Part shown: one piece after another, positions 4,844 to 32,692 of the stretch
Position numbering within the stretch: position 1 is the stretch's first letter
Layout of the letters: each line of letters begins with the position of its first letter
Origin: Microcaldota archaeon
Lineage (GTDB): Archaea > Micrarchaeota > Micrarchaeia > Norongarragalinales > UBA8480
Direction of reading: 5' to 3'
Length of the DNA stretch: 32,692 nt
Assembly (NCBI GenBank): GCA_013425325.1
Contig: JACCLL010000041.1
Span: 1-32,692 of the forward strand
Translations under genes and position numbers: made by a program
The notes under the pieces: generated by a model
What the model was told of the DNA's origin: nothing
The model's input: the letters and a program-made list of their open reading frames with translations, nothing else
The model's database searches: none

Positions 4844-7579
4844 CTAGCGATTCGGTTCCGCGAAGGTAACCCGCGCATCTTTTTCAAGCAGCCACGAGAG
4901 CTTGGCCTCGCTTCCGCGTACTACCGAAGCAACTAGCCTCCTTTGCGCGGCCCAAAGCGAAGAATCCAAGACGCTTGCGTTAGCCGCTCTAATTATTGAG
5001 GTAGCGCTCGCCAGCGAAACGCCTGCGCGGAACTCCGCGAGAACCTGTCCTTCCCTGAAGTCGGCGCCGGCAGTCCAGTTGACGCAAGGCAACGGAGACG
5101 CTTTGTTTCCGCAGTAAGGAAGGACATACGAGGTAGTTGCGGGAGTGAACGGCTCGAGCGCAGCCAGCAGGGCCTCTCTCTGCAGCAAGGAAAAGTATTC
5201 CGCAGAGCCCGCCAGCCGCATTGCGCTCGCCGCAGTGGAGCGAAACAGGAGAAGGTCTCCGGCAGTCCAGTAGCAACCCGTTCCAGGCCTGCAGCCTACG
5301 CCGAAATCGCATTCTTCGGCAACGTCTCCGTACATTAAGTCGGCGCGCCAGCACTCGACGGGGTCTGTTCCCGCGAGCAGACAAGATTTTATTGCGGAGT
5401 AATAGTAGTAGCACGTCTTGTTGCTATAGTCCGCTGCCACGCGGACGGTGCGATTCATTTCTCCCGAGCACCACGTGGGACATCCTTCCATGTCGACGTT
5501 TACTTTGGCAAAAATGTCCGTAAAATTCGCGCCCGCCGCGCGCAAAGTTATGTACTCATCGTAATTGCTTCCGCCGAGTGCCGTGTGGCCGAATTCGTGG
5601 ACGAAATCGGCTTTGATGGCGTCCCAAAAAAAGGGGTTGGGGTAAGTGCCGCGGTATCTCGACTTAAGGAAGAGGTCGCCTCCGCCGGCGCACGGAGGGT
5701 TGTTTACCTCCTCGTTGTTGTAGAAATCAACTACCAGTTCGGCGCTGGAGCCGTTGAGTCCAGCGCACTTTGAACGGATTAATTCACTCATCCACGGCTG
5801 GTGGTTGATCCAGTAACCGCTTCCTCCGCTGTACAAGGCGTAGACGTTGAATTTTGCGGTGTTGTTCGACAAAGGCACGACCGAAAAAAGCCCGCGCGAT
5901 CCAAAAACTGCGTCCGACGCGTCGGAAAAGAACGGCTCCCGCAAGTCGTTGTCGTAGTTGTCCGAAACAATGACGACGTCCGCCTTTTCCGAGGGAGAGC
6001 CGCTGAGCAACAGGGACCTGCATTCAGAAAGTCCGCCGAAAGCATAAACTTTCGAGTCCAACGAGCCGACAACGACGAGGCCGTCATAAACCGCCGGGGA
6101 AGAGGTTACCCAGCTTTCAGCGGCGTACCTCCACTTCAAGCGGCCGCTTACCAAATCCAACGCATAAAAATAATTGTCGTCAGAGCCGACGAATACTACT
6201 CCTTGGGCAACGGCAGGCGAAGAAAGCACTATGCCTCCTGTGCTGAAATTCCACGACAACAAACCCGTGTTCTTGTCCACCGCGTAAACGCTGCCGTCGT
6301 AGTCGCCGAACACGAGCAGACCGCCGGCCAACGCCGGAGAAGAACTGACGCCCACTCCCCTCCTGAAACGCCAGTGCTCGGCTCCGGTCAGACTCGAAAC
6401 GCGGTAAACAAAGCCGTCGTCCGAGCCGAAGAAAACAGGACAATCAGAAAAACAACCGTCACCGTCCGTGGAAGCAGTTGACCTCACGCTGCTAGCGGCG
6501 GCAAACCGCCACTGCACAACTCCCGTCAGTTCGTCAAGCGCGTACAAATTTCGGTCGTAAGAACCGACGAACACCTTTCCGTAGGCAACCAAAGGAGACG
6601 AGTCCGGCCAGGGCGAATCGTCGTAAATGCCTGAAACCATTGAAGGCGTCCAGATGCGAGTGCTCCACAACAATTCCGACGAAGACGCATTAACCGCGTA
6701 AGCAAAGCCGTCGCGCGCCGTGAAGAAAACCAGGTTTCCCGAAACAGTCGGAGAAGAATGAATGGGCTTGGTTGCGTTGAACACCCAATTCCGCGCTCCG
6801 GAAACGGCGTCAACGGAGTATAAAGCTCCGCCGGCAGTTCCGAAGAAAAGCCGCCCGCCCGAAACCGCGGGGGTGGACCACACCGCGCTGCCCGCGTCAA
6901 AAACCCATTTACGCGCTCCAGTCACCGCGTCGGCGGCGTAAACTTTTCCGTCCAGTGAACCAACGAACACCGTTCCGTTCCACACTACCGGAGAAGAAGC
7001 GACGCCGTAATCAGTGTCTAAAATCCAGGCCGTCATGACGTCGTTAGGCGCCCAAGAAACGTTATCCGGAGCAAACGAGAAAGCAAATCCCGTCTTATCC
7101 CACCCGCCATGGAACGAAGTCCAACCATCTTCACGGCCGCCTTCAACCGAAAAAACAATGCGGGACGAATTCGATTTAGAACCGTTAAAAGCACGCACTT
7201 CAACCGCGTGCGAACCCGGCGAAAGCACGGGAAGCGCGCGAGAGTAAAGCGAGTTGTTTGAAATCGCTCCGCTTTCCGTCAGAGAACCGTCGACAAAAAC
7301 CTGGATGGAGTAACCGGAAAAAGACCCGATTGCAACGAACTCGAGCGAAAGCGGCTGCGAAGAATTTTCGTAAGAGGCGTTAACGGGAGAAGTTATTGCA
7401 GGCGCGTTCACGTACTGCGAAGGCGGGTCGTGCAGGAAACGGCAGAGCCACGGCTTCGCGAGACACGGGCTCTTCAGCATTTCGGCGCGTTCCCGGTTAA
7501 TGGGAAGGTAAAGCGCGGTTACTGAAGCGAGAAAGAAAACACTGAACACTAGCGCTATGCAAAATAGCCTTGCCTTCAT
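4844..7579 (-). CDS. Secreted PQQ/BamB-like beta-propeller fused to an M64-like zinc metallopeptidase domain, with a C-terminal I9/subtilase-propeptide-like module
   Basis: Repeats of VYALDxxTGxxxWxF...SSPAVxxGxVFVGSxD. HEFGHTALGGSNYDEY (HExxH...DEY as in M64). C-terminal GQVLAEFRAGVS...LLEKDARVTFAEPN. ATG 7579 is preceded by GGTGGGAGGC and followed by signal peptide MKARLFCIALVFSVFFLASVTA; the ORF-track start 7798 is too long. Confidence 0.8.
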   Translation of the reverse strand: MKARLFCIALVFSVFFLASVTALYLPINRERAEMLKSPCLAKPWLCRFLHDPPSQYVNAPAITSPVNASYENSSQPLSLEFVAIGSFSGYSIQVFVDGSLTESGAISNNSLYSRALPVLSPGSHAVEVRAFNGSKSNSSRIVFSVEGGREDGWTSFHGGWDKTGFAFSFAPDNVSWAPNDVMTAWILDTDYGVASSPVVWNGTVFVGSLDGKVYAADAVTGARKWVFDAGSAVWSTPAVSGGRLFFGTAGGALYSVDAVSGARNWVFNATKPIHSSPTVSGNLVFFTARDGFAYAVNASSSELLWSTRIWTPSMVSGIYDDSPWPDSSPLVAYGKVFVGSYDRNLYALDELTGVVQWRFAAASSVRSTASTDGDGCFSDCPVFFGSDDGFVYRVSSLTGAEHWRFRRGVGVSSSPALAGGLLVFGDYDGSVYAVDKNTGLLSWNFSTGGIVLSSPAVAQGVVFVGSDDNYFYALDLVSGRLKWRYAAESWVTSSPAVYDGLVVVGSLDSKVYAFGGLSECRSLLLSGSPSEKADVVIVSDNYDNDLREPFFSDASDAVFGSRGLFSVVPLSNNTAKFNVYALYSGGSGYWINHQPWMSELIRSKCAGLNGSSAELVVDFYNNEEVNNPPCAGGGDLFLKSRYRGTYPNPFFWDAIKADFVHEFGHTALGGSNYDEYITLRAAGANFTDIFAKVNVDMEGCPTWCSGEMNRTVRVAADYSNKTCYYYYSAIKSCLLAGTDPVECWRADLMYGDVAEECDFGVGCRPGTGCYWTAGDLLLFRSTAASAMRLAGSAEYFSLLQREALLAALEPFTPATTSYVLPYCGNKASPLPCVNWTAGADFREGQVLAEFRAGVSLASATSIIRAANASVLDSSLWAAQRRLVASVVRGSEAKLSWLLEKDARVTFAEPNR

Positions 7580-7614
7580 GCCTCCCACCTGAAAGACTCT
7601 GTGAATCAAGGTCG

Positions 7615-8862
7615 TTAAAACGCTTTCGGAGGCCTGCCTGCAAAGCCCACTATACGCGGGCGCTGCGACGCCGGAGCGGCGCGCACGGGCTTGGCTGGAG
7701 AAGAGTGGTGCAAGTAGACCGCAATCGCGGTTACGACGTTCGTGAAGACGACTATGAACAAAACGACTTGCGTAATTCCAGGAATCGAAACTCCCCACGC
7801 GGAAGGCAGGAAGGAAAGCACGACGGCCGACAGTCCAGTTGGAATGACGAACGCCTGCAGCAAGTAATCCTGGGCGTTAGGCGACAAAAACTTCATTGAC
7901 ACGACGCGCGCGCACAAAATGCAGGCAAGCGCGGCCACCGACAGAAGAAAGATTGCGAGCGGAACGTTGAATTGAAACACTATTCCGACGTAGACGAAGA
8001 AGAAAGTGCGCACGAAGAAAACCACTTCATCCTGAAACACGTACTGCGCCTTCTGCTGAACTTGTTTTCCCCCGTGAATTATGCGCGAGAGTTCGCCGTA
8101 GCTTCCAAGCACTACTCCGAACGAAAGCACTGAAATGGCTCCGTTGCCGCCTATGAACTCGACTGCGGCGTAAAGAATCAACGCGGCCGCCAGCGTCAAA
8201 ACGTATTCGAATGACTTGTCGTCCAGCGCCTGCACGAGCTTGTTCCACGCAAAACCCGCTATGACTCCGGCAACCACTGCAATGGTAAACGCGGCCGCCA
8301 GCGTGTGCAGCGCGCCGGAAGCGTCGAGCGACTGCGCGGAAAGAAAGCGGAGCACGAGGATGGCGCAAACGCTGCTCAACGCGCCGCTGATGCTTGCCTC
8401 CAAGCTGACCGATATTTTAGTCGACTCGCTTGCCCTAAGCCTGTCGACCAACGCGCCGACTACGGTGGGGCACGTGTCGCTCAAAATGAACGCCAGAAAA
8501 GCCGCGTGAAGCAATGGCCAGCCGAAAACAAAGTAAGCGACGACGGTAATCAACGCGGAAGTAAAGAAGTACGCCAAAACCGAGAAAACCGAGTTCGAAG
8601 GAAGAATCGAAATGACGCGCGAGAAGTTGAAGCGCTGTCCAGCCATGAGCATTATCACGACCAGCGCGAGGGCGGCGAAGAAAGGCATTGCAGCAGTTAG
8701 GGAAGAAGAGTCGACGAAGCCCAGCACCGGCCCGACGATTATTCCGAGCGCAATGAGCATGAGAATGTCGGGAACGTCGGTTACCTCGAAGATTTTAGCC
8801 GCCAGGTAGCCGGCTACTATTATCAAGCCGGACAACGCGATTCCGAAAAGCAAGTCAACCAT
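7615..8862 (-). CDS. Monovalent cation:proton antiporter (CPA family)
   Basis: 415 aa polytopic protein, DVPDILMLIALGIIVGPVLGFVD...AFLAFILSDTCPTVVGALVDRL, typical Na+/H+ exchanger domain. Confidence 0.85.
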   Translation of the reverse strand: MVDLLFGIALSGLIIVAGYLAAKIFEVTDVPDILMLIALGIIVGPVLGFVDSSSLTAAMPFFAALALVVIMLMAGQRFNFSRVISILPSNSVFSVLAYFFTSALITVVAYFVFGWPLLHAAFLAFILSDTCPTVVGALVDRLRASESTKISVSLEASISGALSSVCAILVLRFLSAQSLDASGALHTLAAAFTIAVVAGVIAGFAWNKLVQALDDKSFEYVLTLAAALILYAAVEFIGGNGAISVLSFGVVLGSYGELSRIIHGGKQVQQKAQYVFQDEVVFFVRTFFFVYVGIVFQFNVPLAIFLLSVAALACILCARVVSMKFLSPNAQDYLLQAFVIPTGLSAVVLSFLPSAWGVSIPGITQVVLFIVVFTNVVTAIAVYLHHSSPAKPVRAAPASQRPRIVGFAGRPPKAF

Positions 8863-20809: not shown

Positions 20810-21253
20810 TCAAGTTATTTCCAGCCGGCCTTCCATTCCGAATTCCCTGTGCCCCGGCGCCGAGCAGTAGAACGGGAAGGTTCCGGACTGGTTTGCCAAA
20901 AACTCTATTGACTCGGTTCCGCCCGGCGAAAGCAAGTGCGTCGACTTGAATCCCTCGACAACCAGGCTGTGGGCGGTAGTGCCGGCGTTCCTGAAAATGA
21001 TTCGCACGATGTCGCCGCGTTCCACTGAAATAACGTCGGGAGTGAAGTTGAATTCGCGGCTTTCAACAGTGAATTCCTTGACCGGACTCTGCTGCCTCGG
21101 CAATACGGTAATCGGGGGCGGGCTTACGCCCGGCGTTGTTTGAACGGAGGGCGTGGGAGTGGCAGTCACCTGAGGAGCGGGTTGCGAGGTAGTGCAGCCC
21201 GCAAGCAAAACCGCCGCGAACAGGCACAGAACGCCTAAGAACTTGAAATCCAT
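20810..21253 (-). CDS. Cupredoxin-domain lipoprotein
   Basis: Lipobox VLLAGC, Pro/Thr-rich linker, type-1 copper ligand pattern HS...YCSAPGHREFGM. Confidence 0.88.
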   Translation of the reverse strand: MDFKFLGVLCLFAAVLLAGCTTSQPAPQVTATPTPSVQTTPGVSPPPITVLPRQQSPVKEFTVESREFNFTPDVISVERGDIVRIIFRNAGTTAHSLVVEGFKSTHLLSPGGTESIEFLANQSGTFPFYCSAPGHREFGMEGRLEIT

Positions 21254-21780: not shown

Positions 21781-22641
21781 ATGGCGAGAAAAGCCCAGGG
21801 GTCGCTCGAGTATATAGTACTGATCGGCGCCGTACTGTTCTTCATCGTACTGGTTGTAGTGGTGACGAAAACCAACGTATTATCCGGCGGCAGCGAAACG
21901 ACTCAAACCAACATGCAGCAGTGGAACACGACCGTAAACGCCGCGTGCGACATAGGCATTCCCTGTCCCTCCGGCTACGAGTGCGCGGCAAACGGAAGCT
22001 GCGTAATTCCGCTCGCACCGTCTTGCACGGTTAACATTACAGCGGCGGACCTTCCGTATACTACTACTCCCGGGCCGGGCGTTTATTGCCTGACTGAAGA
22101 TGCTGCGTTACCCGTCGGCAACGCGATTACAATTACTTCCTCGGACGTCGAACTGAATTGTTTTAACCACGTGCTTAGCGGCGCTGGTCCCGTTTGCGGA
22201 GCCATGCAGGTGGGCGTTTTTGTAGGTCCTGCGCTGCCGGCGTTGTCGAACGTGACTGTAAAGAACTGCAACTTGCACGACTTCTGCGGAGCAATGTACC
22301 TCGCCAACATGACTAGTGGAAACGTTTCATACAACGACGCTCACGACAACTATTATGGACTAGTGGTGGCTGGCAATGGCACTACTTACTCTTCGAACAA
22401 CGTTTCCTCTAACTTGTTCAGGGGCTTTGCTATCCTCAGCCAATCTTTTTCAAACATTTTCTCAAGTAACCGCGCTTGCGACAACAACTGCTCTGGTGGA
22501 ACATGTCAAGACTTTCGTTTCGGCAACGAGCAAACAAGTATTGACAGCACTTGCGGCACAGGCGGCTGCTATCAAAGCGCCGCCTGGCCGATGTGTTCCA
22601 GCGGCTTGGGCGGTTACAGCAACTGCAACTTCACCTGCTGA
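21781..22641 (+). CDS. Class III signal peptide (pilin-like) protein with short beta-helix and Cys-rich C-terminal cap
   Basis: MARKAQGSLEYIVLIGAVLFFIVLVVVV (archaellin/pilin-type leader), CDIGIPCPSGYECAANGSC module, beta-helix repeats (VTVKNCNLHDFCGAMYLANMTSGNVSYNDAHDNYYGLVV), cap CGTGGCYQ...NCNFTC. Confidence 0.85.
   Translation: MARKAQGSLEYIVLIGAVLFFIVLVVVVTKTNVLSGGSETTQTNMQQWNTTVNAACDIGIPCPSGYECAANGSCVIPLAPSCTVNITAADLPYTTTPGPGVYCLTEDAALPVGNAITITSSDVELNCFNHVLSGAGPVCGAMQVGVFVGPALPALSNVTVKNCNLHDFCGAMYLANMTSGNVSYNDAHDNYYGLVVAGNGTTYSSNNVSSNLFRGFAILSQSFSNIFSSNRACDNNCSGGTCQDFRFGNEQTSIDSTCGTGGCYQSAAWPMCSSGLGGYSNCNFTC
22477..22638 (+). repeat. Cys-rich beta-helix cap, copy 1
   Basis: CDNNCSGGTCQDFRFGNEQTSIDSTCGTGGCYQSAAWPMCSSGLGGYSNCNFTC. 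Confidence 0.75.
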
Positions 22642-22672
22642 AGCAAAAACGGGCTCGACGGCAAGGCCAAAG

Positions 22673-22683
22673 CAAATAAATCC
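22673..22683 (+). promoter_or_regulatory. TATA-like element
   Basis: CAAATAAATCC about 25 nt before ATG 22703; nearly the same sequence as upstream of 21781. Confidence 0.45.
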
Positions 22684-22702
22684 GATAGCGGTAAGCTCTC
22701 TC

Positions 22703-25507
22703 ATGCCAAGAAAAGCACAGGCCTCGCTCGAACACGTCATACTGATAGGAGCCCTCCTGTTTTTCGTCGCAATAATAATAGTAATCACCAAAACCAACGT
22801 CTTGTACGGCGGCAGCGAAACGACGAAAACCAACGTCCAGCAACTCAGCACGGCGATAAACGCAGTGTGCGACCTCGGCATACCCTGCCCGACTGGCTAC
22901 GACTGCGCGGCAAACGGAAGCTGCATTGCCGGCTGCATCGGCACGACCGTCACTTCGTGCATAACAATCAGTTCCCCCGGCAGTTACTGCGTGGAAAGCA
23001 ACCTCTCCAGCTCCGGCACCTGCATCACCATTTCCGCCAACGACGTTTCCTTCGACTGCCACAACCACGCCATAACCGGCCCCACCGGCTCGGGCTACGG
23101 CGTTTCATTATGGCACGTGAACAACGCGACCGTCAAACGATGCACGGTCAAACAATTTGCCACCGGCGTGTACTTGTACGATTCCGCGACCAACAATTTG
23201 ATTGAAGACAATTTGCTGACCGGCAACAACATCGGAGCGCAGACGGGCGCCATGGGAAGCAATTCGGGCAACAACTTTTCTTACAACAACATTTCAAGCA
23301 ACACCCAATTGGGACTGGACATATCTTATGCTCTCAACGGCGCAATAGAACAGAACGAGATACGCTACAATTCAATGGGAGGAATATCGTCTTACTGGGG
23401 TGGCGGCCACTTCATTGCAAACAATGAAATAACGGACAACGGCGGATACGGCATTAACTTCTTCACGCCCTCGTCGAAAAGCACGATTTACTCCAACAAC
23501 CTGTCCGCCAACAACAACTGCGGAATATACTTGTACGGCCCCGGCGCGCCCGGCCACAACATTTCCTACAACGAAATTTCCTACACCTCCGGCAGCCCCG
23601 GAGCAATATGCGGCACTACGTGGGCGCCCGACACGATAATAGAACACAATACAATGAACAACAACCTGTACGGCGTTTACTTAACGGGCGGCTTGATGTC
23701 GCAGTTCAACTACAACACCCTGTGCGACAACACCAACTACGACGTCTACGTTTCTAACGCACAAGTCGCTTCAGTTGCGGGCAACACCTGCGGCGCGGGC
23801 AAGTGCTACCAAGGAGGAGTGTGGGGTATCTGCATGCCGAACGTCGCGGGAGCCGGCAACTGCAATCACTGCTGCAGCGGAAACTGTCTGCCGGCCGTGT
23901 CGCTCAACGAGCCGACGAACGGCGCGACACTCGCAAAAGGAGAGGTCGTTTCGTTCAACTATACTCCTTCCGACGAAGTGGGCTTTAAGAACGCCACGCT
24001 GTACACGGACGAGGACGGCACGTGGAAAGCATACGAATCCAATTCAACGCCTATCACGAACGGCGCGAAAAACACGATAGCCCACACGATTACCACCACG
24101 TCCGGAACCTACGCCTGGAACGTCCTCGCCTGCGACACCGACGACGCGTGCAGCTGGGCTGCTTCAAACTATTCCTTCACAATACCCTGCGACCCCGGAG
24201 AAATCTGTTACTGCGGCTACTCCGTAGGCTCGCCGGGAAACTATTACTTGAGCGAAAACCTCAGCTGCGTCGTAAGCGGCATTGCGGTAAACGCGAACGA
24301 CGTTCGCATTGACTGCAACGGGCACGAAATAAGCGGTCCGGGAGGCTTCACGGGAATCGCTACGGCCGCGCTGGCGTCGAACATCACGGTCTTCAACTGC
24401 ACCATAAAAAACTACAATTACGCCATCCGATACGTCTCTAACACGGACAGCCGAATAATCGAAAACCGGCTTGAAAACAACTGGGCGGGCGTATGGCTTT
24501 CCGAATGGTACGGCATAGCCATGCAAACGTTAATTGAAAACAACACAATAGACAACACAAACTACGCCGTCTACTTGGAATCCAGTAGTTTGGAAAACCA
24601 GTCGAACATCATGAGAAACAACACTTTAACCAACGGCGCAACCTCCTGGGCTTCCGGAATTGAGGTTCACTCGGGAAACAACACAATAGAAAACAACCGA
24701 GTATCAAACTATTACTACGGCATCATCGTGGGGGCGGCGTACACTCAAATAAAAAATAATTTCATTTCCTCCAGCGCGGAAGGAATCATATTCTACAACA
24801 TCAACTACTCGCTTGTCTACGGCAACGCCATAACTAACGCCTCGTTCGCCGGCGTATACACTTCCGACGGTTCCAACGCCAACATTTCCTACAATGAAAT
24901 AAACGACTCCAACTACGGCATTATGGCACAACTTGGAGTACCCCTTCAAAACAGTAACATCTCATACAACAAGATAACCAACACAACCAGTTCCGGAATT
25001 TGGCTGTACGGCTCGCAGTACAACACCGTTTCCTACAACAACGTTTCATACAACCAAGGGTACGGCGCCGAGTTTTTTGACGTGAGCAACAACACAATAG
25101 CATACAACAACATAACCAGAAACGGCTACACCGGACTCTACTTCGCAACCTACACGATTTCTACAGAGTACAACACCGCGCTAGGCAACACCATAACCAA
25201 CAACAGCAACGGCATTTTTTTCGCCGGCTACAACGATACCCTGCGAACGCGGTACAACAACGTTTCCTCGAACACCATAGACGACAACAGCGCGGTCGGC
25301 GTGCACGTCTACGACTCCTACAGCGACTCAAACTACTTTACAGACAACCAGATTTGCGGAAGCACCAGCACTGCGTTCGCCGTGTACGCGTCTCAAAACC
25401 CTGCTTCAGGCAACAAGTGCGACGCAGGCAAGTGCTACCAAACCGACGCGCACAACGTGTGCGTGCCCAACGTCGCGGGATATGGCAACTGCAACAACGC
25501 GTGCTGA
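22703..25507 (+). CDS. Class III signal peptide protein with two right-handed beta-helix (NosD/CASH-like) domains separated by an Ig-like module
   Basis: MPRKAQASLEHVILIGALLFFVAIIIVI leader, CDLGIPCPTGYDCAANGSC module, many NxSYNxI/NxTI beta-helix repeats, Ig-like PAVSLNEPTNGATLAKGEVVSFNYTPSD, two Cys-rich caps. ORF-track start 22376 overlaps the upstream CDS out of frame and is not supported. Confidence 0.88.
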   Translation: MPRKAQASLEHVILIGALLFFVAIIIVITKTNVLYGGSETTKTNVQQLSTAINAVCDLGIPCPTGYDCAANGSCIAGCIGTTVTSCITISSPGSYCVESNLSSSGTCITISANDVSFDCHNHAITGPTGSGYGVSLWHVNNATVKRCTVKQFATGVYLYDSATNNLIEDNLLTGNNIGAQTGAMGSNSGNNFSYNNISSNTQLGLDISYALNGAIEQNEIRYNSMGGISSYWGGGHFIANNEITDNGGYGINFFTPSSKSTIYSNNLSANNNCGIYLYGPGAPGHNISYNEISYTSGSPGAICGTTWAPDTIIEHNTMNNNLYGVYLTGGLMSQFNYNTLCDNTNYDVYVSNAQVASVAGNTCGAGKCYQGGVWGICMPNVAGAGNCNHCCSGNCLPAVSLNEPTNGATLAKGEVVSFNYTPSDEVGFKNATLYTDEDGTWKAYESNSTPITNGAKNTIAHTITTTSGTYAWNVLACDTDDACSWAASNYSFTIPCDPGEICYCGYSVGSPGNYYLSENLSCVVSGIAVNANDVRIDCNGHEISGPGGFTGIATAALASNITVFNCTIKNYNYAIRYVSNTDSRIIENRLENNWAGVWLSEWYGIAMQTLIENNTIDNTNYAVYLESSSLENQSNIMRNNTLTNGATSWASGIEVHSGNNTIENNRVSNYYYGIIVGAAYTQIKNNFISSSAEGIIFYNINYSLVYGNAITNASFAGVYTSDGSNANISYNEINDSNYGIMAQLGVPLQNSNISYNKITNTTSSGIWLYGSQYNTVSYNNVSYNQGYGAEFFDVSNNTIAYNNITRNGYTGLYFATYTISTEYNTALGNTITNNSNGIFFAGYNDTLRTRYNNVSSNTIDDNSAVGVHVYDSYSDSNYFTDNQICGSTSTAFAVYASQNPASGNKCDAGKCYQTDAHNVCVPNVAGYGNCNNAC
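23723..23875 (+). repeat. Cys-rich beta-helix cap, copy 2
   Basis: CDNTNYDVYVSNAQVASVAGNTCGAGKCYQGGVWGICMPNVAGAGNCNHCC. Confidence 0.8.
25355..25504 (+). repeat. Cys-rich beta-helix cap, copy 3
   Basis: CGSTSTAFAVYASQNPASGNKCDAGKCYQTDAHNVCVPNVAGYGNCNNAC. Confidence 0.8.
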
Positions 25508-25591
25508 AGCGAAAACGGGTTCGGCAGCCGCCGAAGACAATGCTTTGTTTTTAATCCGCCTTAACCTAACTTCCCTACAACCTGATGCAAA

Positions 25592-26911
25592 ATGAGTCTT
25601 GAAATAAGCGCGGGAAAACCCCGGCCAATAGTCACGGCATTAGTAGTAGTGGCCATCGCGGCAATCATTTTCTTCTCCATCTCGCGAATCGGATACTTCT
25701 GGGTAATGCTCGCCCCCAACCTAGTCCTGCTTCTAGTGACTCTAGTAATGCTGTTCGCCTTCTTCGAAAAAAAACCCGAGAAAAAAATGGCGCCAAAAGA
25801 CTATCCCCGCCTCACCGTAATCCTGCCAGTGCACAACGCGCAGGAAACAATTGAGAAAGCAATCGAGCGCGTGCGCAACTCAGACTACCCCTACGGAATT
25901 GAAGTGATCGCGGTTGACGACGCAAGCACCGACTCCTCGCCCCAGATACTTGCGAAGCTCAAGGGCGTGAAAGTGCTGACAATGAAGAAAAACGTGGGAA
26001 AAGCCGCTGCGTTGAACGCCGGCGCCAAGCTCGCGAAAGGAGAAGTAATTGCGTTCGTGGACGCGGATTCTTACGTTGAAAAAACTGCGTTCAAGCACGC
26101 GGTCGAAGCGATTCTGGAAGACGACGAAATAGGCGCCGCAACCTGCTTCATCCGAGTAGCTGACGCAAACAAGTCGATTCTCAGGAAAGTACAGGAAATC
26201 GAGTACTACACGGGATTCGGGTTCGCGGCGCTGGCCAGCCACTTGCTGGACGCCATTTTCGTCACCCCCGGCCCGACTACGGTGTTCAGGAAAACGGCGT
26301 TCGAGAAAATACACGGCTTCGACGAACACAATATTACTGAAGACCTGGAAATGGCGTGGCGGTTGAGGCGCCACGGCTTCGGAATAGCCTACTCACCGGA
26401 CTCGATTGTCTACACCGAAGTTCCCGACACGATAAAGGCGTTGTACCGCCAGCGGCTCAGGTGGTACCGCGGAAAATTGTTTAACGTACGCAAGTACTCG
26501 GACATGCTGTTCAACAAGAAGTACGGCAACTTCGGCTTGTTCATGCTCCCCGGCTCTTTTTCCGCCGAGTTCGCCGGAATAGTCCTCAGCTTCTCGTTCG
26601 TCTACCTACTGTTCAGACAAGCGGCTTGGCTGGCGTCCTACCTGGCTTCAAGCCTCGCAGTCGGAACGCTTTCGCTTGACTTGAGCGGATTCGCGTTAGT
26701 CGGCACGTCGGCAATAGCAATGGGAGCGGTAATAGTCATTCCGTGGATTTTCGCGCTCTACTTGAGTTACGGCATGGCGGGAAGAAAATTCGGGTTGCGC
26801 CAAGTGCCCCAACTCTTTCTCTTCCTCTTCTTCTACGGAACAGTAGTGTCGTTCTTTTACTGCGCAAGCTTCATTAAGGAAGTAAACAGAAGTGATTACA
26901 AATGGAAGTAA
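25592..26911 (+). CDS. Membrane-bound processive family 2 glycosyltransferase
   Basis: LTVILPVHNAQETIEKAIERV, VIAVDDASTDSS, FVDADSY, ITEDLEMAWRLRRHG, QRLRWYRG (QxxRW); flanking TM helices. Confidence 0.92.
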   Translation: MSLEISAGKPRPIVTALVVVAIAAIIFFSISRIGYFWVMLAPNLVLLLVTLVMLFAFFEKKPEKKMAPKDYPRLTVILPVHNAQETIEKAIERVRNSDYPYGIEVIAVDDASTDSSPQILAKLKGVKVLTMKKNVGKAAALNAGAKLAKGEVIAFVDADSYVEKTAFKHAVEAILEDDEIGAATCFIRVADANKSILRKVQEIEYYTGFGFAALASHLLDAIFVTPGPTTVFRKTAFEKIHGFDEHNITEDLEMAWRLRRHGFGIAYSPDSIVYTEVPDTIKALYRQRLRWYRGKLFNVRKYSDMLFNKKYGNFGLFMLPGSFSAEFAGIVLSFSFVYLLFRQAAWLASYLASSLAVGTLSLDLSGFALVGTSAIAMGAVIVIPWIFALYLSYGMAGRKFGLRQVPQLFLFLFFYGTVVSFFYCASFIKEVNRSDYKWK

Positions 26912-27561
26912 AGAAAGGACTGTACTTGAAGGCGGCGCTTGCGGCGCTCGCGCTTTTCATAATATCCGTTTCAGTCGGCTACTATGTAGAAGCACAGAAT
27001 TACTCCGCGCTTGAAACAAAGCTGGCCGACATCGAAGACAGCACGCAGACGGCCCTGCTGGTCAACCTGTTCATGCAAACCCACAATGCTTCCTCGATGT
27101 GCAGCGCGCTTGAAACGGAGTTGAGCGACGTCGAACGCGAAACTTACTCGGTCTACACGCAGCTCGAGCAAAACAAGGGAATGAACATACTCACGAACTA
27201 CGATTCCCTGCGCAAGAAATACTTCCTGATGAACATGCGGTTTTACCTGACCCTCCGCGCGTACAAGCAAAGCTGCGGCGACCCGACGCTTCAACCAATT
27301 CTCTTCTTCTACAACTCGCAAAACGAATGCCCCGAATGCGCGGCTCAAGGAAAAGTCCTCGACTCGCTGCGCCAACGCTGCTCGAATTACCGCGTTTACG
27401 CGTTTCCGAACGACGTCGAGCAAATCAGCATGATAAAAACATTCAAGGCCTACTACCACGTGGCAACCGCCCCGTCGCTAGTAGTGAACGACGAGACTCT
27501 AACGGGAATACAGGGCGAGCCACAGGTAATGGCGCGCGCTCCCTGCGTGCAAACTACATAA
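26902..27561 (+). CDS. Membrane-anchored thioredoxin-fold-like protein
   Basis: N-terminal TM (AALAALALFIISVSVGYYV), CPEC redox-type motif (27328-27339) after PILFFYNSQNE, and TAPSLVVN resembling the thioredoxin cis-Pro loop. Overlaps the GT2 stop. Confidence 0.7.
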   Translation: MEVKKGLYLKAALAALALFIISVSVGYYVEAQNYSALETKLADIEDSTQTALLVNLFMQTHNASSMCSALETELSDVERETYSVYTQLEQNKGMNILTNYDSLRKKYFLMNMRFYLTLRAYKQSCGDPTLQPILFFYNSQNECPECAAQGKVLDSLRQRCSNYRVYAFPNDVEQISMIKTFKAYYHVATAPSLVVNDETLTGIQGEPQVMARAPCVQTT

Positions 27562-27570
27562 AAGAAGAAA

Positions 27571-27654
27571 CGCGGGGAGGGGGATTTGAACCCCCGAGGC
27601 GCAAAGCGCCACCAGCTTAGCAGGCTGGCGCCATAGCCACTAGGCGACCCCCGC
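27571..27654 (-). tRNA. tRNA-Ser (anticodon GCU)
   Basis: Reverse complement GCGGGGGTCGCCTAGTGGCTATGGCGCCAGCCTGCTAAGCTGGTGGCGCTTTGCGCCTCGGGGGTTCAAATCCCCCTCCCCGCG: anticodon stem CCAGC/GCTGG with loop CTGCTAA, long class II variable arm, T-loop TTCAAAT, 7-bp acceptor, discriminator G. No intron, CCA not encoded. Confidence 0.96.
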
Positions 27655-27693
27655 ACTAGAGAAAATTATTTTGGCGCACTGCGTTATTAACGA

Positions 27694-28314
27694 TTACGAC
27701 AACAGCGTCTTTGCCGCTTGGGAAACATCCTGCGCCCTCACTACCGTGACGCCGAGGGAGGCAAGCGCGGCTTCGTCTTTAATGGACTGATTTTCCGCGA
27801 CTACGACTACATTCTTTCCTGCGCCAACTGAAGCAAGGATTTTTTCCTCGATTCCGTCGACTTCCAGCAGCGTCCCGTTTTCGTCAATGGCCGCGCTGAC
27901 TGCAGTTCCTTCCCGCAGCGTTCTTCCGCTGGCGAGCGAAGCAATCGCCATTGTAAATGCCGTGCCTGCGCTTTCGCCGCTCACTGCCTCGTGGCCACCG
28001 GTTGTTTCAAGAACAAGGTCCACTGAAGAAAGCGAGCGGCCGACAACGCGTTCGGCGTTGAGCCTTGCCTTGCGCAACGAGTTCTCCACGTCGTCGGTAA
28101 AACTGGTGCCGGCTACGTTTACGAGAATGCGTCCGCTTCCCTGAAGCAAGTAAAGCCGGAACGGAACTACTACGCCGCGGCCGTCTTCGGTTATTGCCAG
28201 TGCATTGAAGTCAATGCTCGGGCTCTGCGACGGCGCGTTATAGTAAGCAGCAAAGAAAGCGGTTGCCCCCGCGACGAACGCGATTGCTAGCACGAGCAAC
28301 AAGTTGGACTTCAC
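27694..28314 (-). CDS. Membrane-anchored Lon/S16-like serine protease domain protein (no AAA+ domain)
   Basis: N-terminal TM; GESAGTAFTMAIASLASGRTL (candidate Ser 27970-27972) and DGIEEKILASVGAG (candidate Lys 27841-27843). Confidence 0.8.
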   Translation of the reverse strand: MKSNLLLVLAIAFVAGATAFFAAYYNAPSQSPSIDFNALAITEDGRGVVVPFRLYLLQGSGRILVNVAGTSFTDDVENSLRKARLNAERVVGRSLSSVDLVLETTGGHEAVSGESAGTAFTMAIASLASGRTLREGTAVSAAIDENGTLLEVDGIEEKILASVGAGKNVVVVAENQSIKDEAALASLGVTVVRAQDVSQAAKTLLS

Positions 28315-29189
28315 TGCAAATCAACCCGCATTATTTCATAGGCTTGCGAAACGTTTGCCACTTCAATTAGTTGAACGCCCGTTTCTTCCGAGACATTCAC
28401 CGACTCTATTACCGTAACGCTTTGCGTGCGGCAGCTCGTGAACGGCGTTCCTCCGACGTACTCAGTAGTACAGGATTGGTTTTGCATCGTCCGCGAAACC
28501 GAATCAATCGACTCGCCCACCGGAACCAGGAAAAGCAAGTAACCGGCTTCCTTTACTGCACGCGCCTTGTCCAGGATTCTGCCCACGCGCGTAATCCTTC
28601 CATCCGGCTCGAGCGCGCCGGTGATCAGCGTGTCGTTGCGCAATTTTCCTTCAAGCAGCGCCAGTCCCGCAATCGCCGCGGCCGCCCCGGCGCTCCTGCC
28701 GCCCACTGCAACCGAAGGCGCGGTCAAAGAATAAAACAAGTCAAACGCGGACGCGTTGCCATCGGCGAAAGCGCGCGCGTACTCGGCGGCAACACTCAAA
28801 GAAACCTGGGTGTCGTTGTTCACAATAGGGTTCGCGGGGTCCGGAACTGGAATCCAGTTGCGCGGGCTTCCGGCAACTGCGGCAGGCCTCGCGACGACAG
28901 TCAGTTCCGCCAGAACCCCTCCTTCGGAAGCTGCTGCGGGAAGCTTTAGTTTAATCACGCGCTCTTCCGCTTGCGCAATGGGTTCAACCGAAGGACTGGC
29001 GAACGGAGCTTCTGAAGGAGTTGAAACAAAACCCGTGTTTTGAAGAGGCCGCGGAGTCGGCGAAGCAGCGGCTTGCTGGAATTCAGCAGAGTAACCCAAG
29101 TAAACAGCCATTACCGCCGCGACGGCGACCAAGAACAGCAACAACGCCTTCAAACCCAACACCTTTACGAAAGAAATTAGCTTACGCAC
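28311..29189 (-). CDS. Membrane-anchored Lon/S16-like serine protease domain protein (no AAA+ domain), second paralogue
   Basis: N-terminal TM; GGRSAGAAAAIAGLALLEGKL (candidate Ser 28692-28694) and VGRILDKARAVKEAGYLLFLVP (candidate Lys 28566-28568). Stop overlaps the next gene's start. Confidence 0.78.
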   Translation of the reverse strand: MRKLISFVKVLGLKALLLFLVAVAAVMAVYLGYSAEFQQAAASPTPRPLQNTGFVSTPSEAPFASPSVEPIAQAEERVIKLKLPAAASEGGVLAELTVVARPAAVAGSPRNWIPVPDPANPIVNNDTQVSLSVAAEYARAFADGNASAFDLFYSLTAPSVAVGGRSAGAAAAIAGLALLEGKLRNDTLITGALEPDGRITRVGRILDKARAVKEAGYLLFLVPVGESIDSVSRTMQNQSCTTEYVGGTPFTSCRTQSVTVIESVNVSEETGVQLIEVANVSQAYEIMRVDLQ

Positions 29190-29279
29190 TAATAAAAAGT
29201 CGTTTTGGGCGCTTTTTTGAAAAGCCGCTTTTTAGTGCAGGTCTTTCGAGGCGCCGGAGCGAAGGCGGAGACGCCGAAG

Positions 29280-29285
29280 AAAAAA
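29280..29285 (-). terminator. T-run 3' of SRP RNA
   Basis: A6 on the + strand (T6 on the transcript strand) directly after the closing helix of the SRP RNA. Confidence 0.5.
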
Positions 29286-29291
29286 GTGCAG

Positions 29292-29566
29292 TGCAGTTCC
29301 GGCTCCGCGGGTTGAAAACGCTGGGCCGCTTCCGGTTTGCCGAGGCTTGCCTCGTCCTTGTTTTCTGCGAGCACGCGCCAAAGGGCTTAGAGTTGCTCCT
29401 TCCGGCCTGGCTCGTTTTGCTCTTCGCCGCGTAACGCAGGGCAAGGAGTCTACGGCAGTGTCCCGGGCCGGATTCGGTCAACGAGTCCGTCCCTCGGTTT
29501 CGCCGCGCCGTAAAGGGGATTTGCGTCTGCAGGGAACCCCTAGCTCCCCAGCTAGCCGAAACTGCA
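29292..29566 (-). ncRNA. Signal recognition particle RNA (archaeal 7S RNA)
   Basis: Ends pair (helix 1): 5' TGCAGTTTCGGCT (29554-29566) with 3' AGCCGGAACTGCA (29292-29304). Alu-domain-like GGCTAGCTGGGGAGCTAGGGGTTCCCTGCAGACGCAAATCCCC. Helix 8/SRP54 site GCCAGGCCGGAAGGAGCAAC (29392-29411). TATA upstream and T-run downstream. Confidence 0.93.
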
Positions 29567-29587
29567 AACGTATTTTGGTTTCCCGCT

Positions 29588-29597
29588 TATTTAAGGC
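29588..29597 (-). promoter_or_regulatory. TATA box for SRP RNA gene
   Basis: CCTTAAATAA (minus strand), about 26 nt upstream of the inferred RNA 5' end. Confidence 0.55.
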
Positions 29598-29642
29598 AAG
29601 AGGCCAACGGGATTTTATACTCTTGATTCTTTGGTTTTGTTC

Positions 29643-29876
29643 ATGCGCGCGCAAATCGCTCTGGAGTACTTGATTCTAGCCGCGGCAGTGGTAGTGTTCG
29701 CGGCCGCAATCTACTTTTTCATCAGTGGATACGCGTACGCGCCGTCCGTCAACAAGTCGCTTACTCCTTTGTTCGGGTCAAGCGAGGGCTATAATCCGTT
29801 GAACCAGAGCGTCCCGACGCGCGGCGGCTTCTACGGATTCGTGCGAAACTGGACTACTCCAACGGTTCCTCCGTGA
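29643..29876 (+). CDS. Small class III signal peptide (pilin-like) protein
   Basis: MRAQIALEYLILAAAVVVFAAAIYFFISGYAYAPS; TATA-like TTTTATACT about 27 nt upstream of ATG 29643. Confidence 0.8.
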   Translation: MRAQIALEYLILAAAVVVFAAAIYFFISGYAYAPSVNKSLTPLFGSSEGYNPLNQSVPTRGGFYGFVRNWTTPTVPP

Positions 29877-29911
29877 AAACCGTTTTAAAGCAAAAAGCGC
29901 TTTCGTTCCTC

Positions 29912-32692
29912 ATGCGCAAGCCACGAAAAGCACAGACTGCAATCGAATACCTGCTGATGATCGGCGCAGTAATCATCTTCGTTATCGGCATAAACTACCT
30001 GGTTTCATACTACGTGTACGCGCCGAGCGAAAGCCAGGCCAACGTGGTAAGCGCAGGCATCCAACAGTTTTTGGAAGGCCTGAGGTTCGTGCCCACTGCC
30101 ACGCCGCCAGCGCCTCCATCGCTTTCATGCGGCACGACTATAAACGCGTCAGGAACTTATTCGCTCTCAAGCGACTTGGTTTGCCCGCAATACGGCTTGC
30201 TCATCAACGCGTCAAGCGTCGTCCTCGACTGCCAGCACTACACTATAACCGGCCCAATGACCGATTGTTCCTCGCCATATAGCGGAATAGCAGTCATCGG
30301 CAGCCAAACCGGAGTAACGATTCAAAACTGCATCGTAACCAATTTTTGTTACTGCATAACCGCGGGAACCGCCTGGTGGTTTGGAGAACTGTCTAACGGA
30401 ATCATAAGAGACAACTACGCCAACGCCTGCTACTACGGGTTAACCGGCTCCATGTCAAGCACTTCCTTCACAGACAACAACGCCAGCAACAACGTGTTTG
30501 CCGGAGTATACTTTGCAATCCCAAACAACGACTTTAGCAACACGCGCGCCTGCGACAACGCCGTCTTCGACTTCGATTTCGTTGCGTCTCAAGCAAGCAA
30601 CACCAACAGTTACTGCGGCAACAACTACTGCTACCAAACCGACGCCTGGAACCTCTGCACTCCCAACAACCCAACGTACGGCAACTGCCAGCACTGCTGC
30701 GGTAGGTGCCCGCCGGCAGTAACGCTGGACGCGCCGAACGGCGCTTCCTTCGCAAGACACGACGTCGTCGCCTTCAACTACACGCCTTCCGACGACGAAG
30801 CGTTCGCCAACGCAACGCTGTACACCAACGAGAGCGGAACTTGGGCAGAACGCGCCTACAACGCAAGCCCGCTGACCAACGACACGCTGAACACCATCTA
30901 CTACCAAGTCGACAACACCGGAACATTCGAGTGGAACGTCTTGGTCTGCGACGACGACGCCTGCGGCTGGGCTGCTTCAAACTATTCCTTCACAGTAACC
31001 TGCGCAGTCGGAGAAATTTGTTACTGCCCGTACGCCATTTCGCTCGCGGGAAGCTACCTGGTAACAACCGACTTGACGTCCTCGTCCGGCACCTGCATAT
31101 TCATACACGCTTCCAGCGTGAACTTGGACTGCCAGAACCACGTAATCACCGGCCCAGGAAGCGGCGAGGGAATACAAATGTATGACGGAAACTACGTTAA
31201 CGTAACGAACTGCACGATCAAAAACTTCCTGTACGGAATCCTAGCCGGCAATAACACTTATGCAAGAATAACAAACAACACGCTTTACTCTAACACCTAC
31301 GGCTTCATAGTAATAGGCAGTTTAAACAACAGTTTGTTGCAGTCCAACAACGTTTCCAACAACACACAGGACGGAGTATACTTTACGACGGGCGCCAGCG
31401 AGAACAATGATCTTACCGAAAACGTGCTCTCCAGCAATGGATACTACGGCCTGAGATCTACGTTCGCTACTTTAAGAAACTGGACTATTGCAAACAACCG
31501 GATAACATCCAACGTCTACTCGGGAATAACCTCCTACTACGAATCAGACCGGATGCTATACCTGAATATCTCGCACAACAACGTTTCTTACAACGGAAAC
31601 AATGGCTTAGTCTTGTACAACTTCGCGAACGGAACCATTTTCAACAACACGATATTCAACAACACCGGCTACGGCTTATTCCTGGGCGCCTACACTCCTG
31701 GCGACGCGGCGTACAACAACATCACCAACAACACGATAAACAACAACACAGCATACGGCGTTTACTTAGACGGATACAACGCGACGATGAAAGTCAGCGA
31801 CAACAACTTCTCTTACAACACAATCAATTACAATGCCCAATACGGCCTTTACTTCCGAAACGACTTGTACACCGGCCCAAACACTCTGTACTACAACAAC
31901 CTATGCAACAACGGAGCGTCTTACTACGACATTTACTCGCCGGCGACAGGCAGCGCGCAGACGGGCTCAACTGGCGACATGTGCGGCGCGGGCAAGTGCT
32001 ACCAGGGCGGTGTCTACAACGTGTGCGTGCCGAACGTCGGCGGCGCGGGAAATTGCCAGCAAAACTGTCCGACAGCGGCAACGCCGATTTCCTCGTGTCC
32101 ATACACTATTTCGCTCGCGGGAAGCTACGCGGTAACAACCGACTTGTCTTGCGCAGGCAACGGAATAACCGTAAGCGCTTCCAACGTCAACCTCGACTGC
32201 CAGAACCACGTGCTCACCGGACCGGGAAGCAGTACGGGAATAGGCATATCAGCAACGTACAACTACGTCAACGTCACGAACTGCACGGTCAAAAACTTCC
32301 AGAACGGAATTTCGATGAACAACAACGACTACTCCAGGCTAATCAACAACACGGCGTACTCCAACACCAACAACGGCATTTACATCCAGTCGACGAGCGA
32401 CTCAAACACTTTCCAAAACAACAACGCGTCGTACAACACGCAGCACGGAATATACTTGTACGGCGACGCGAACAGCAACCAGTTCGTCACAAACATCGCG
32501 CGCAAGAACGGTTACAGCGGAATAAACTTCAACAGCGCCAGCGGCTATCCAGGAAGCAACAACGTTTCCGGAAACACGGTTGAAAACAACACGCAATACG
32601 GCTTCTACTGCTCCGGCTGGTGCGACCCCAATTACTTCTCGAACAACCGCTTCTGCTTCAACGGCGCGTCGTACTACGACTTTTACGCGGCA
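29912..32692 (+). CDS. Class III signal peptide protein with at least three beta-helix domains, 3' truncated by window edge
   Basis: Missing from the ORF track because no stop occurs in the window. MRKPRKAQTAIEYLLMIGAVIIFVIGINYLVSYYVYAPSESQ leader; frame open for 927 codons to 32692; NosD-like repeats, Ig-like PAVTLDAPNGASFARHDVVAFNYTPSD, repeated Cys-rich caps. Confidence 0.9.
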   Translation, partial: MRKPRKAQTAIEYLLMIGAVIIFVIGINYLVSYYVYAPSESQANVVSAGIQQFLEGLRFVPTATPPAPPSLSCGTTINASGTYSLSSDLVCPQYGLLINASSVVLDCQHYTITGPMTDCSSPYSGIAVIGSQTGVTIQNCIVTNFCYCITAGTAWWFGELSNGIIRDNYANACYYGLTGSMSSTSFTDNNASNNVFAGVYFAIPNNDFSNTRACDNAVFDFDFVASQASNTNSYCGNNYCYQTDAWNLCTPNNPTYGNCQHCCGRCPPAVTLDAPNGASFARHDVVAFNYTPSDDEAFANATLYTNESGTWAERAYNASPLTNDTLNTIYYQVDNTGTFEWNVLVCDDDACGWAASNYSFTVTCAVGEICYCPYAISLAGSYLVTTDLTSSSGTCIFIHASSVNLDCQNHVITGPGSGEGIQMYDGNYVNVTNCTIKNFLYGILAGNNTYARITNNTLYSNTYGFIVIGSLNNSLLQSNNVSNNTQDGVYFTTGASENNDLTENVLSSNGYYGLRSTFATLRNWTIANNRITSNVYSGITSYYESDRMLYLNISHNNVSYNGNNGLVLYNFANGTIFNNTIFNNTGYGLFLGAYTPGDAAYNNITNNTINNNTAYGVYLDGYNATMKVSDNNFSYNTINYNAQYGLYFRNDLYTGPNTLYYNNLCNNGASYYDIYSPATGSAQTGSTGDMCGAGKCYQGGVYNVCVPNVGGAGNCQQNCPTAATPISSCPYTISLAGSYAVTTDLSCAGNGITVSASNVNLDCQNHVLTGPGSSTGIGISATYNYVNVTNCTVKNFQNGISMNNNDYSRLINNTAYSNTNNGIYIQSTSDSNTFQNNNASYNTQHGIYLYGDANSNQFVTNIARKNGYSGINFNSASGYPGSNNVSGNTVENNTQYGFYCSGWCDPNYFSNNRFCFNGASYYDFYAA
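30551..30700 (+). repeat. Cys-rich beta-helix cap, copy 4
   Basis: CDNAVFDFDFVASQASNTNSYCGNNYCYQTDAWNLCTPNNPTYGNCQHCC. Confidence 0.8.
31904..32068 (+). repeat. Cys-rich beta-helix cap, copy 5
   Basis: CNNGASYYDIYSPATGSAQTGSTGDMCGAGKCYQGGVYNVCVPNVGGAGNCQQNC. Confidence 0.8.

Follow-up and report, generated by a model that had tools for sequence, protein, structure and literature searches.

Modular pilins number more than 1,200 proteins in 264 architectures in bacteria, those of Streptococcus sanguinis including PilB, with a vWA domain, and PilC, with a lectin domain (PMC8179133, PMC9934059). ComZ of Thermus thermophilus is a pilin-like protein with a large beta-solenoid, which binds DNA and has been proposed to act as a receptor at the pilus tip (PMC6561018). 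In archaea, the EppA/Epd pilus of Methanococcus maripaludis is described as comprising proteins with Q+1/E+5 leaders, a pilin-dedicated A24 peptidase and two membrane platform proteins, with a major pilin (MMP1685) of 74 aa and other class III proteins of 200–299 aa (PMC3875500). The bindosome of Saccharolobus (Sulfolobus) solfataricus consists of sugar-binding proteins cut by PibD, with BasEF needed for function and no pili seen (PMC2910488). Our literature search for class III leaders combined with a beta-helix found no paper in the collection searched. Here we analyse a 32,692-nt stretch of DNA (the window) from a Micrarchaeota genome, the nearest named relative being CG1_02_51_15, in which such a combination occurs.

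Leaders and ectodomains of A, B, C and pil

The class III leaders of the original prediction were confirmed at the starts of A (21781..22641, plus strand, 286 aa; ATG at 21781, MARKA/QGSLEY, the slash marking the predicted cut), B (22703..25507, plus strand, 934 aa; ATG at 22703, MPRKA/QASLEH), the class III mini-pilin pil (29643..29876, plus strand, 77–78 aa; ATG at 29643, MRA/QIALEY) and C (29912..32692, plus strand; ATG at 29912, MRKPRKA/QTAIEY). The short pilin-like protein expected beside the largest reading frame is pil, which at 78 aa precedes C and has the start of the module in common with it. A cleavage site, E+5 and a hydrophobic alpha1 are present in these leaders, in B through homology to A. 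The Pfam Class_IIIsignal model matched A (6.5e-5), pil (3.7e-4) and C (3.8e-4), with B, which has H at +6, falling under its threshold; because B is homologous to A (68% identity across the first 68 mature residues), we count it as a class III-leader protein. The helix is followed in A and B by ~40 residues with conserved Cys and in C by a Pro-rich linker, the structural model of B being of low confidence in this region.

Grafted after the pilin part is an extra module with no specific tie to pilus biology, identified as Beta_helix/NosD in B (E=3e-51) and C (E=2e-43) and more weakly in A (NosD 1.3e-4). Large beta-helix ectodomains behind pilin-type leaders had been anticipated, and we found one short right-handed domain in A, behind its Cys-containing pilin module, two in B, separated by an Ig/PKD-like linker (~residues 400–480), and at least three in C, with one Ig-like linker, the number in C being a minimum since the gene runs off the contig end. 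The beta-helices lie C-terminal to the helix or linker and are not inserted in a pilin beta-sheet, and no Pfam match to an ABC-type solute-binding protein domain was obtained in A, B or C. The ectodomains had also been called sequon-rich, a description that composition explains in part, with z=3.1 for A, z=2.1 for C and z=1.4 for B over shuffled sequences. Asn richness is a property of the beta-helix itself, and as a sign of dedicated glycosylation sequon richness proved weak once compared with shuffles.

The pilus machine and the modular genes of relatives

A prepilin peptidase and an assembly ATPase, sought elsewhere in the genome, were both found on contig C32, where a single cluster encodes an ATPase (T2SSE 2.5e-46), two platform proteins (T2SSF) and four small class III pilins, together with an A24 peptidase that carries the C-terminal domain PF06819. 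That domain, which we take to be the mark of EppA, passed the cut-off in one of 14 control genomes, that of Methanocaldococcus jannaschii. C32 encodes a complete type IV pilus machine with an EppA-type peptidase, and the EppA/Epd-type features that we tested (an ATPase, two platform proteins and pilins of ~70 aa) were present. A 304-aa frame at C32 holds only a ~40-aa mini class III protein. The leaders of A, B and C, which lie on a different contig from the machine, can be aligned with the leaders found on the C32 pilins and on C45.

The leader and beta-helix architecture recurred in the order when sought in relatives. Large fusions of leader and ectodomain occur in five of nine genomes of the same order versus two of 88 elsewhere in the class, a census that leaves out one hit, in G010, whose 253-aa frame is a 111-aa protein read in a longer frame. 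Class III fusion proteins in the order reach ~1,750 aa, and ectodomain types among relatives include NosD (7), Beta_helix (6) and LamG_3 (6), together with GH114, DUF285, PEGA, GH130 and sialidase. In a comparison of 38 large class III proteins, identity was 41.9% in the TM part (16.5% when shuffled) and 24.0% in the ectodomains, against a background of 22.8%. Q+1 and E+5 were found in all 38 and Y+6 in 36, the search pattern itself having demanded Q and E/D. At A's place, the sister genome G001 has a gene (L044:7868-8713, minus strand) that keeps the pilin module (44% identical) with a different ectodomain, for which Pfam and PDB sequence searches gave no match; a carbohydrate-binding jelly roll considered for it is unproven, the single-sequence fold (mean pLDDT 33) being unusable. 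In one relative the architecture lies within a pilus operon (G027:C102), whose genes share a strand and encode an ATPase, a platform protein, two mini class III proteins, a 308-aa protein and a class III protein of 1,246 aa. Judged from these comparisons, a single order of Micrarchaeota shows an expansion of the large modular form, with domains apparently swapped among close relatives.

Proposed display of A, B and C, and alternatives

We favour, with moderate confidence, a reading of A, B and C as archaeal modular pilins, which would undergo EppA-type processing and be displayed by the pilus machine with their ectodomains as binding modules. Its observed basis is the architecture, the homology of the leaders to those of the machine's pilins, the presence of that machine, the recurrence in the order, the congener's differing ectodomain at the same locus and one relative's modular gene in a pilus operon. 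The EppA-type A24 peptidase of C32 would cut the short charged leader (MARKA, MPRKA or MRKPRKA) before Q+1, and the C32 ATPase and two platform proteins would extract the mature hydrophobic helix with its E+5 and pack it into a thin pilus of mini-pilins (the C32 pilins, C45 and pil) or a short surface assembly. Because a rigid 900-aa protein fits doubtfully within the filament body, placement at the tip or near the cell is likelier. Exposed outside the cell, the beta-helix ectodomains would bind, most likely, carbohydrates or glycoproteins, and would probably serve as carbohydrate-binding adhesins; their exchange on a conserved pilin module would diversify surface binding. We infer a role in cell contact for A, B and C, which could include host attachment. 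More tentatively, and short of being probable, the order may have turned the EppA-type pilus into a general surface-display platform, in which a near-invariant helix tag carries swapped giant modules (beta-helix, LamG, GH114-like and others) as lineage-specific, fibre-borne adhesins for partner cells.

Alternatively, cleavage of the leader may leave the helix membrane-bound or lodged in a short pseudopilus, in which case A, B and C would make up a bindosome-like array or a coat on the cell surface instead of fibre-borne adhesins. We give this membrane-proximal display a lesser, still appreciable, probability, given the Sulfolobus precedent of large extracellular proteins, other than pilins, that bear class III leaders (PMC2910488), the carbohydrate-binding or carbohydrate-active types (LamG, GH114) among the relatives' ectodomains and the poor fit of huge rigid ectodomains to a filament body, as argued for ComZ (PMC6561018). 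Against it stand the mini-pilins, sized like M. maripaludis major pilins, at the machine locus and beside C, and the modular gene in the G027 pilus operon.

It is unlikely that the beta-helices are enzymatic, as putative polysaccharide lyases or epimerases remodelling surface glycans of the cell itself or of a neighbour. The model of B, of modest confidence (mean pLDDT 58, alignment of 3 sequences), comprises an N-terminal helix (5–35), a beta-helix, an Ig/PKD-like domain and a second beta-helix, and in Foldseek it mainly matches polysaccharide lyases, alginate epimerases and tailspikes, at fold level (10–14% identity). Moreover, the neighbouring GT2 membrane glycosyltransferase (25592..26911, plus strand) resembles, far under the cut-off, processive polysaccharide synthases of the PgaC/IcaA/NodC type rather than an N-glycosylation enzyme. 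However, B matched no PDB sequence, and hence no solved enzyme, repeated beta-helices joined through an Ig-like linker typify proteins with a binding or structural role, and the linkage of GT2 to class III genes is not conserved.

Still less likely are plain, uncut TM signal anchors whose likeness to pilin leaders is due to chance or descent, as the single TM segment and the failure of the B leader in the Pfam model might suggest. Against them speak a charged E+5 within the helix, K-A/Q at the cut site, leaders of 3–7 residues homologous to those of the machine's own pilins, and retention of the leader across unrelated ectodomains. Only one further beta-helix protein was found in the genome (on C11); its TM anchor is an ordinary one that lacks the K-A/Q...E5 motif, and the leader on A, B and C is thus a specific feature rather than chance.

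The remaining genes had been tentatively joined with A, B and C into a coordinated system for secretion, disulfide bonding, glycosylation and turnover. Besides GT2, whose membership in such a system is unsupported, they encode a membrane protein with a CPEC thioredoxin-like domain (26902..27561, plus strand), a membrane S16/Lon_C-like protease (27694..28314, minus strand), a membrane S16-like protein with weak Lon-family matches (28311..29189, minus strand) and SRP RNA (29298..29560, minus strand; 63.2 bits). All are present as predicted, with the qualification that thioredoxin models matched the CPEC protein below cut-off only and that the second S16-like protein had no Pfam match. The window also contains tRNA-Ser(GCT) (27570..27655, minus strand), absent from the original list; it and SRP RNA are housekeeping genes. 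GT2 and CPEC are conserved partners: of 60 genomes in the class, ~40 have them side by side, for the most part next to GT4-type and housekeeping genes, and the pair touches a class III gene solely in this genus; neither conserved synteny with class III genes outside the genus nor the coordinated system was borne out. A dedicated maturation locus for fibre adhesins, with GT2, CPEC and S16 proteins serving A, B and C, is therefore very unlikely despite the tight gene spacing in the window, the fact that G001, too, has GT2, CPEC, the S16 pair and a class III gene on a single contig and the many Cys of A (18) and B (34), since elsewhere in the class the pair lacks class III neighbours, strands differ and the tRNA and SRP RNA genes intervene.

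Comparison with known systems

If an N-terminal tag does mark an exchangeable adhesin repertoire, candidate attachment proteins, through which DPANN archaea may recognize and hold partner cells, could be listed directly from genomes, and the modular-pilin principle, so far described in bacteria, would extend to archaea with much larger, multi-domain modules.

Among described systems, the bindosome likewise combines large extracellular proteins bearing class III leaders with a pilus-type ATPase and platform pair, but its cargo consists of ABC-type sugar-binding proteins, a domain that A, B and C lack. With the M. maripaludis pilus the locus shares the size of pil (77–78 versus 74 aa in MMP1685); Y+6, present here, is absent from the M. 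maripaludis pilins, and beta-helix or other giant modules are not mentioned in the consulted passages of that account (PMC3875500). Like comZ, which lies by pilA2, C is encoded beside a partner pilin, pil, although the ComZ solenoid is inserted in the pilin beta-sheet whereas multiple beta-helices here follow the helix. The bacterial modular pilins also have a class III leader and a pilin helix bearing a bulky, exchangeable non-pilin module, and LamG_3 (PF13385) is common to both sets. Unlike them, the archaeal proteins have leaders of the family PF04021, with Q+1 (IPR012902 in bacteria), no evident globular head between helix and module (in a low-confidence model), and multi-domain modules of up to ~1,750 aa; their occurrence is concentrated in a single order. 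The modular-pilin principle is already known from bacteria, and it is the large form, expanded in one order of Micrarchaeota, that differs.

Leaders and domain architecture

The window comprises contig C86 in full. A sequence check bore out the positions originally predicted for the three large ORFs, A (21781..22641, +), B (22703..25507, +) and C (29912..32692, +), and for a 78-aa pilin-like ORF, pil (29643..29876, +); the gap between A and B, which share a strand, is 61 bases, and that between pil and C is 35 bases. In searches with the Pfam Class III model, A, pil and C give E values of 6e-5 to 4e-4 and B no match, but the first 68 mature residues of B are 68% identical to A; the mature leaders of A, B and C align with those of the pilins in the genome's own pilus locus. 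Beyond the leader, a single short beta-helix domain is present in A, two occur in B, and C, which runs off the contig end, has at least three; in B as in C, the first beta-helix is followed by an Ig/PKD-like linker. A structure model of B, built from three window sequences and of good confidence in its second half only, predicts a long N-terminal helix (residues 5–35) and beta-helix coils with a sandwich domain between them; Foldseek matched the model to right-handed beta-helices (polysaccharide lyases, alginate epimerases and phage tailspikes) and its linker to a PKD domain. We regard this architecture as virtually certain. Only one further beta-helix protein, besides B and C, was found in the genome (863 kb, 88.6% completeness): a 288-aa protein on contig C11 with an ordinary N-terminal TM anchor, a Pro/Thr-rich linker and no leader features. 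A pilin leader is therefore not required by a beta-helix protein in this genome.

A pilus machine and proposed modular pilins

The ATPase and prepilin peptidase sought elsewhere in the genome are present on contig C32, where one strand encodes a T2SSE ATPase, two T2SSF platform proteins, an A24 peptidase with PF06819 and four small class III proteins (about 40, 72, 133 and 145 aa). This set is alike in kind to the Methanococcus maripaludis EppA/Epd pilus, whose parts are a single ATPase, a pair of membrane components, a major pilin of 74 aa and further, larger class III proteins (200–299 aa) (PMC3875500). A second A24 peptidase, lacking PF06819, is on C53.

In our judgement, the C32 peptidase would cut the leaders of A, B and C, a prediction we consider probable, and the C32 machine would handle the three proteins, which is somewhat less assured. 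A modular-pilin reading is favoured by the sister genome G001 and by gene order in the relative G027. The G001 gene at A's position, flanked by leuS and GT2, retains the pilin module (44% identical, including a CDLGIPCPNGY-type Cys segment), and its ectodomain has no resemblance to a beta-helix. In G027, genes for the ATPase, one platform protein and two mini class III proteins are followed downstream, on the same strand, by that of a 1,246-aa class III protein. G024 has a 1,595-aa class III protein in the same orientation as, and ~8 kb downstream of, small class III genes and one for a platform protein, with unrelated genes in the interval. Also in G001, ~4 kb downstream of the pilus machine on C20, is a 542-aa beta-helix protein (L046:12085-13748) with a degenerate leader, KARSSLEYLLILVG, in which R replaces Q+1, and no clear start codon. 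The chances appear evenly balanced that A, B and C are displayed on the pilus or at its tip and not at the membrane; they may or may not bind glycans or glycoproteins, and a putative role in partner-cell contact is more doubtful.

Neighbouring genes in the window

The original prediction of a dedicated system with GT2 (25592..26911, +) and CPEC (26902..27561, +) found no support, class III synteny being limited to G000, the source genome, and G001, the only genomes with a class III gene before GT2–CPEC. The two genes adjoin in nearly all genomes having both (about 40/60), usually amid GT4-type glycosyltransferases or unrelated housekeeping genes; the GT2 and thioredoxin-like CPEC (25592..27561) are a conserved pair among the 60 Micrarchaeota genomes searched, often beside a GT4-type gene (MRIAFFTDTYLPNVDGVV). 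The QRLRW motif of GT2 and its top NCBIfam match, PgaC/IcaA, well below cut-off, point to a polysaccharide-type synthase. Since an STT3-type oligosaccharyltransferase occurs on C47, N-glycosylation is possible without this GT2. The S16-like pair (27694..29189, −) and the SRP RNA (29298..29560, −), also proposed as parts of the system, are separate minus-strand units, as is the tRNA; the SRP RNA scores 63.2 bits under the model for bacterial large SRP RNA, narrowly above the cut-off of 60, with no archaeal SRP match listed.

Three small genes separate leuS from A in the source genome, and this stretch differs between the congeners because the G001 counterpart of A adjoins leuS directly. Between leuS and A lies a lipoprotein-like cupredoxin (20810..21253, −; Cupredoxin_1, 3e-12). 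The LeuS proteins of the source genome and Candidatus Micrarchaeota archaeon CG1_02_51_15 share 79% identity. Toward the opposite contig end are two more large secreted proteins (2947..4701, −, and 4844..7798, −), one with a caspase/gingipain-like 'ADGHGN...SGCDTAAW' region and the other resembling PQQ-type beta-propeller repeats, both by eye only.

Class III proteins in relatives and known precedents

Class III leaders occur in 56 of 60 relatives. Among 38 proteins from 14 genomes (window included) that join a leader to a long frame, the leader TM part has a mean identity of 41.9% versus 16.5% when shuffled, whereas ectodomains are at background (24.0% versus 22.8%); invariance of the Q and E/D positions is partly imposed, because the search motif required them. 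Domains in this set include NosD/Beta_helix, LamG_3, DUF285, GH114, GH130, PEGA and sialidase-like, and G024 alone contributes six large class III proteins. The class III proteins at L067:3467-7204 (−), L063, L064, L065 and L066 (1,246 to 1,749 aa) differ in their ectodomains but share a nearly identical leader (RGQGTFEYVLLLGGVLLIVVLA). A second census over a complete list, in which genuine leaders in frames of 250 aa or more were counted, was positive for 5/9 genomes in the order versus 2/88 in the rest of the class, both from one genus (Fisher p about 4e-5, a guide only because genomes are not independent).

A search of literature outside subscription journals returned no paper that combines class III leaders with beta-helices. 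Modular pilins have been described in bacteria (PMC8179133), as has a pilin with a beta-solenoid, ComZ (PMC6561018). For archaea, the bindosome provides a precedent for large extracellular proteins with class III leaders (PMC2910488). What appears to be new is a multi-module archaeal form that includes beta-helices and is concentrated in one order, together with the ectodomain difference between close relatives.
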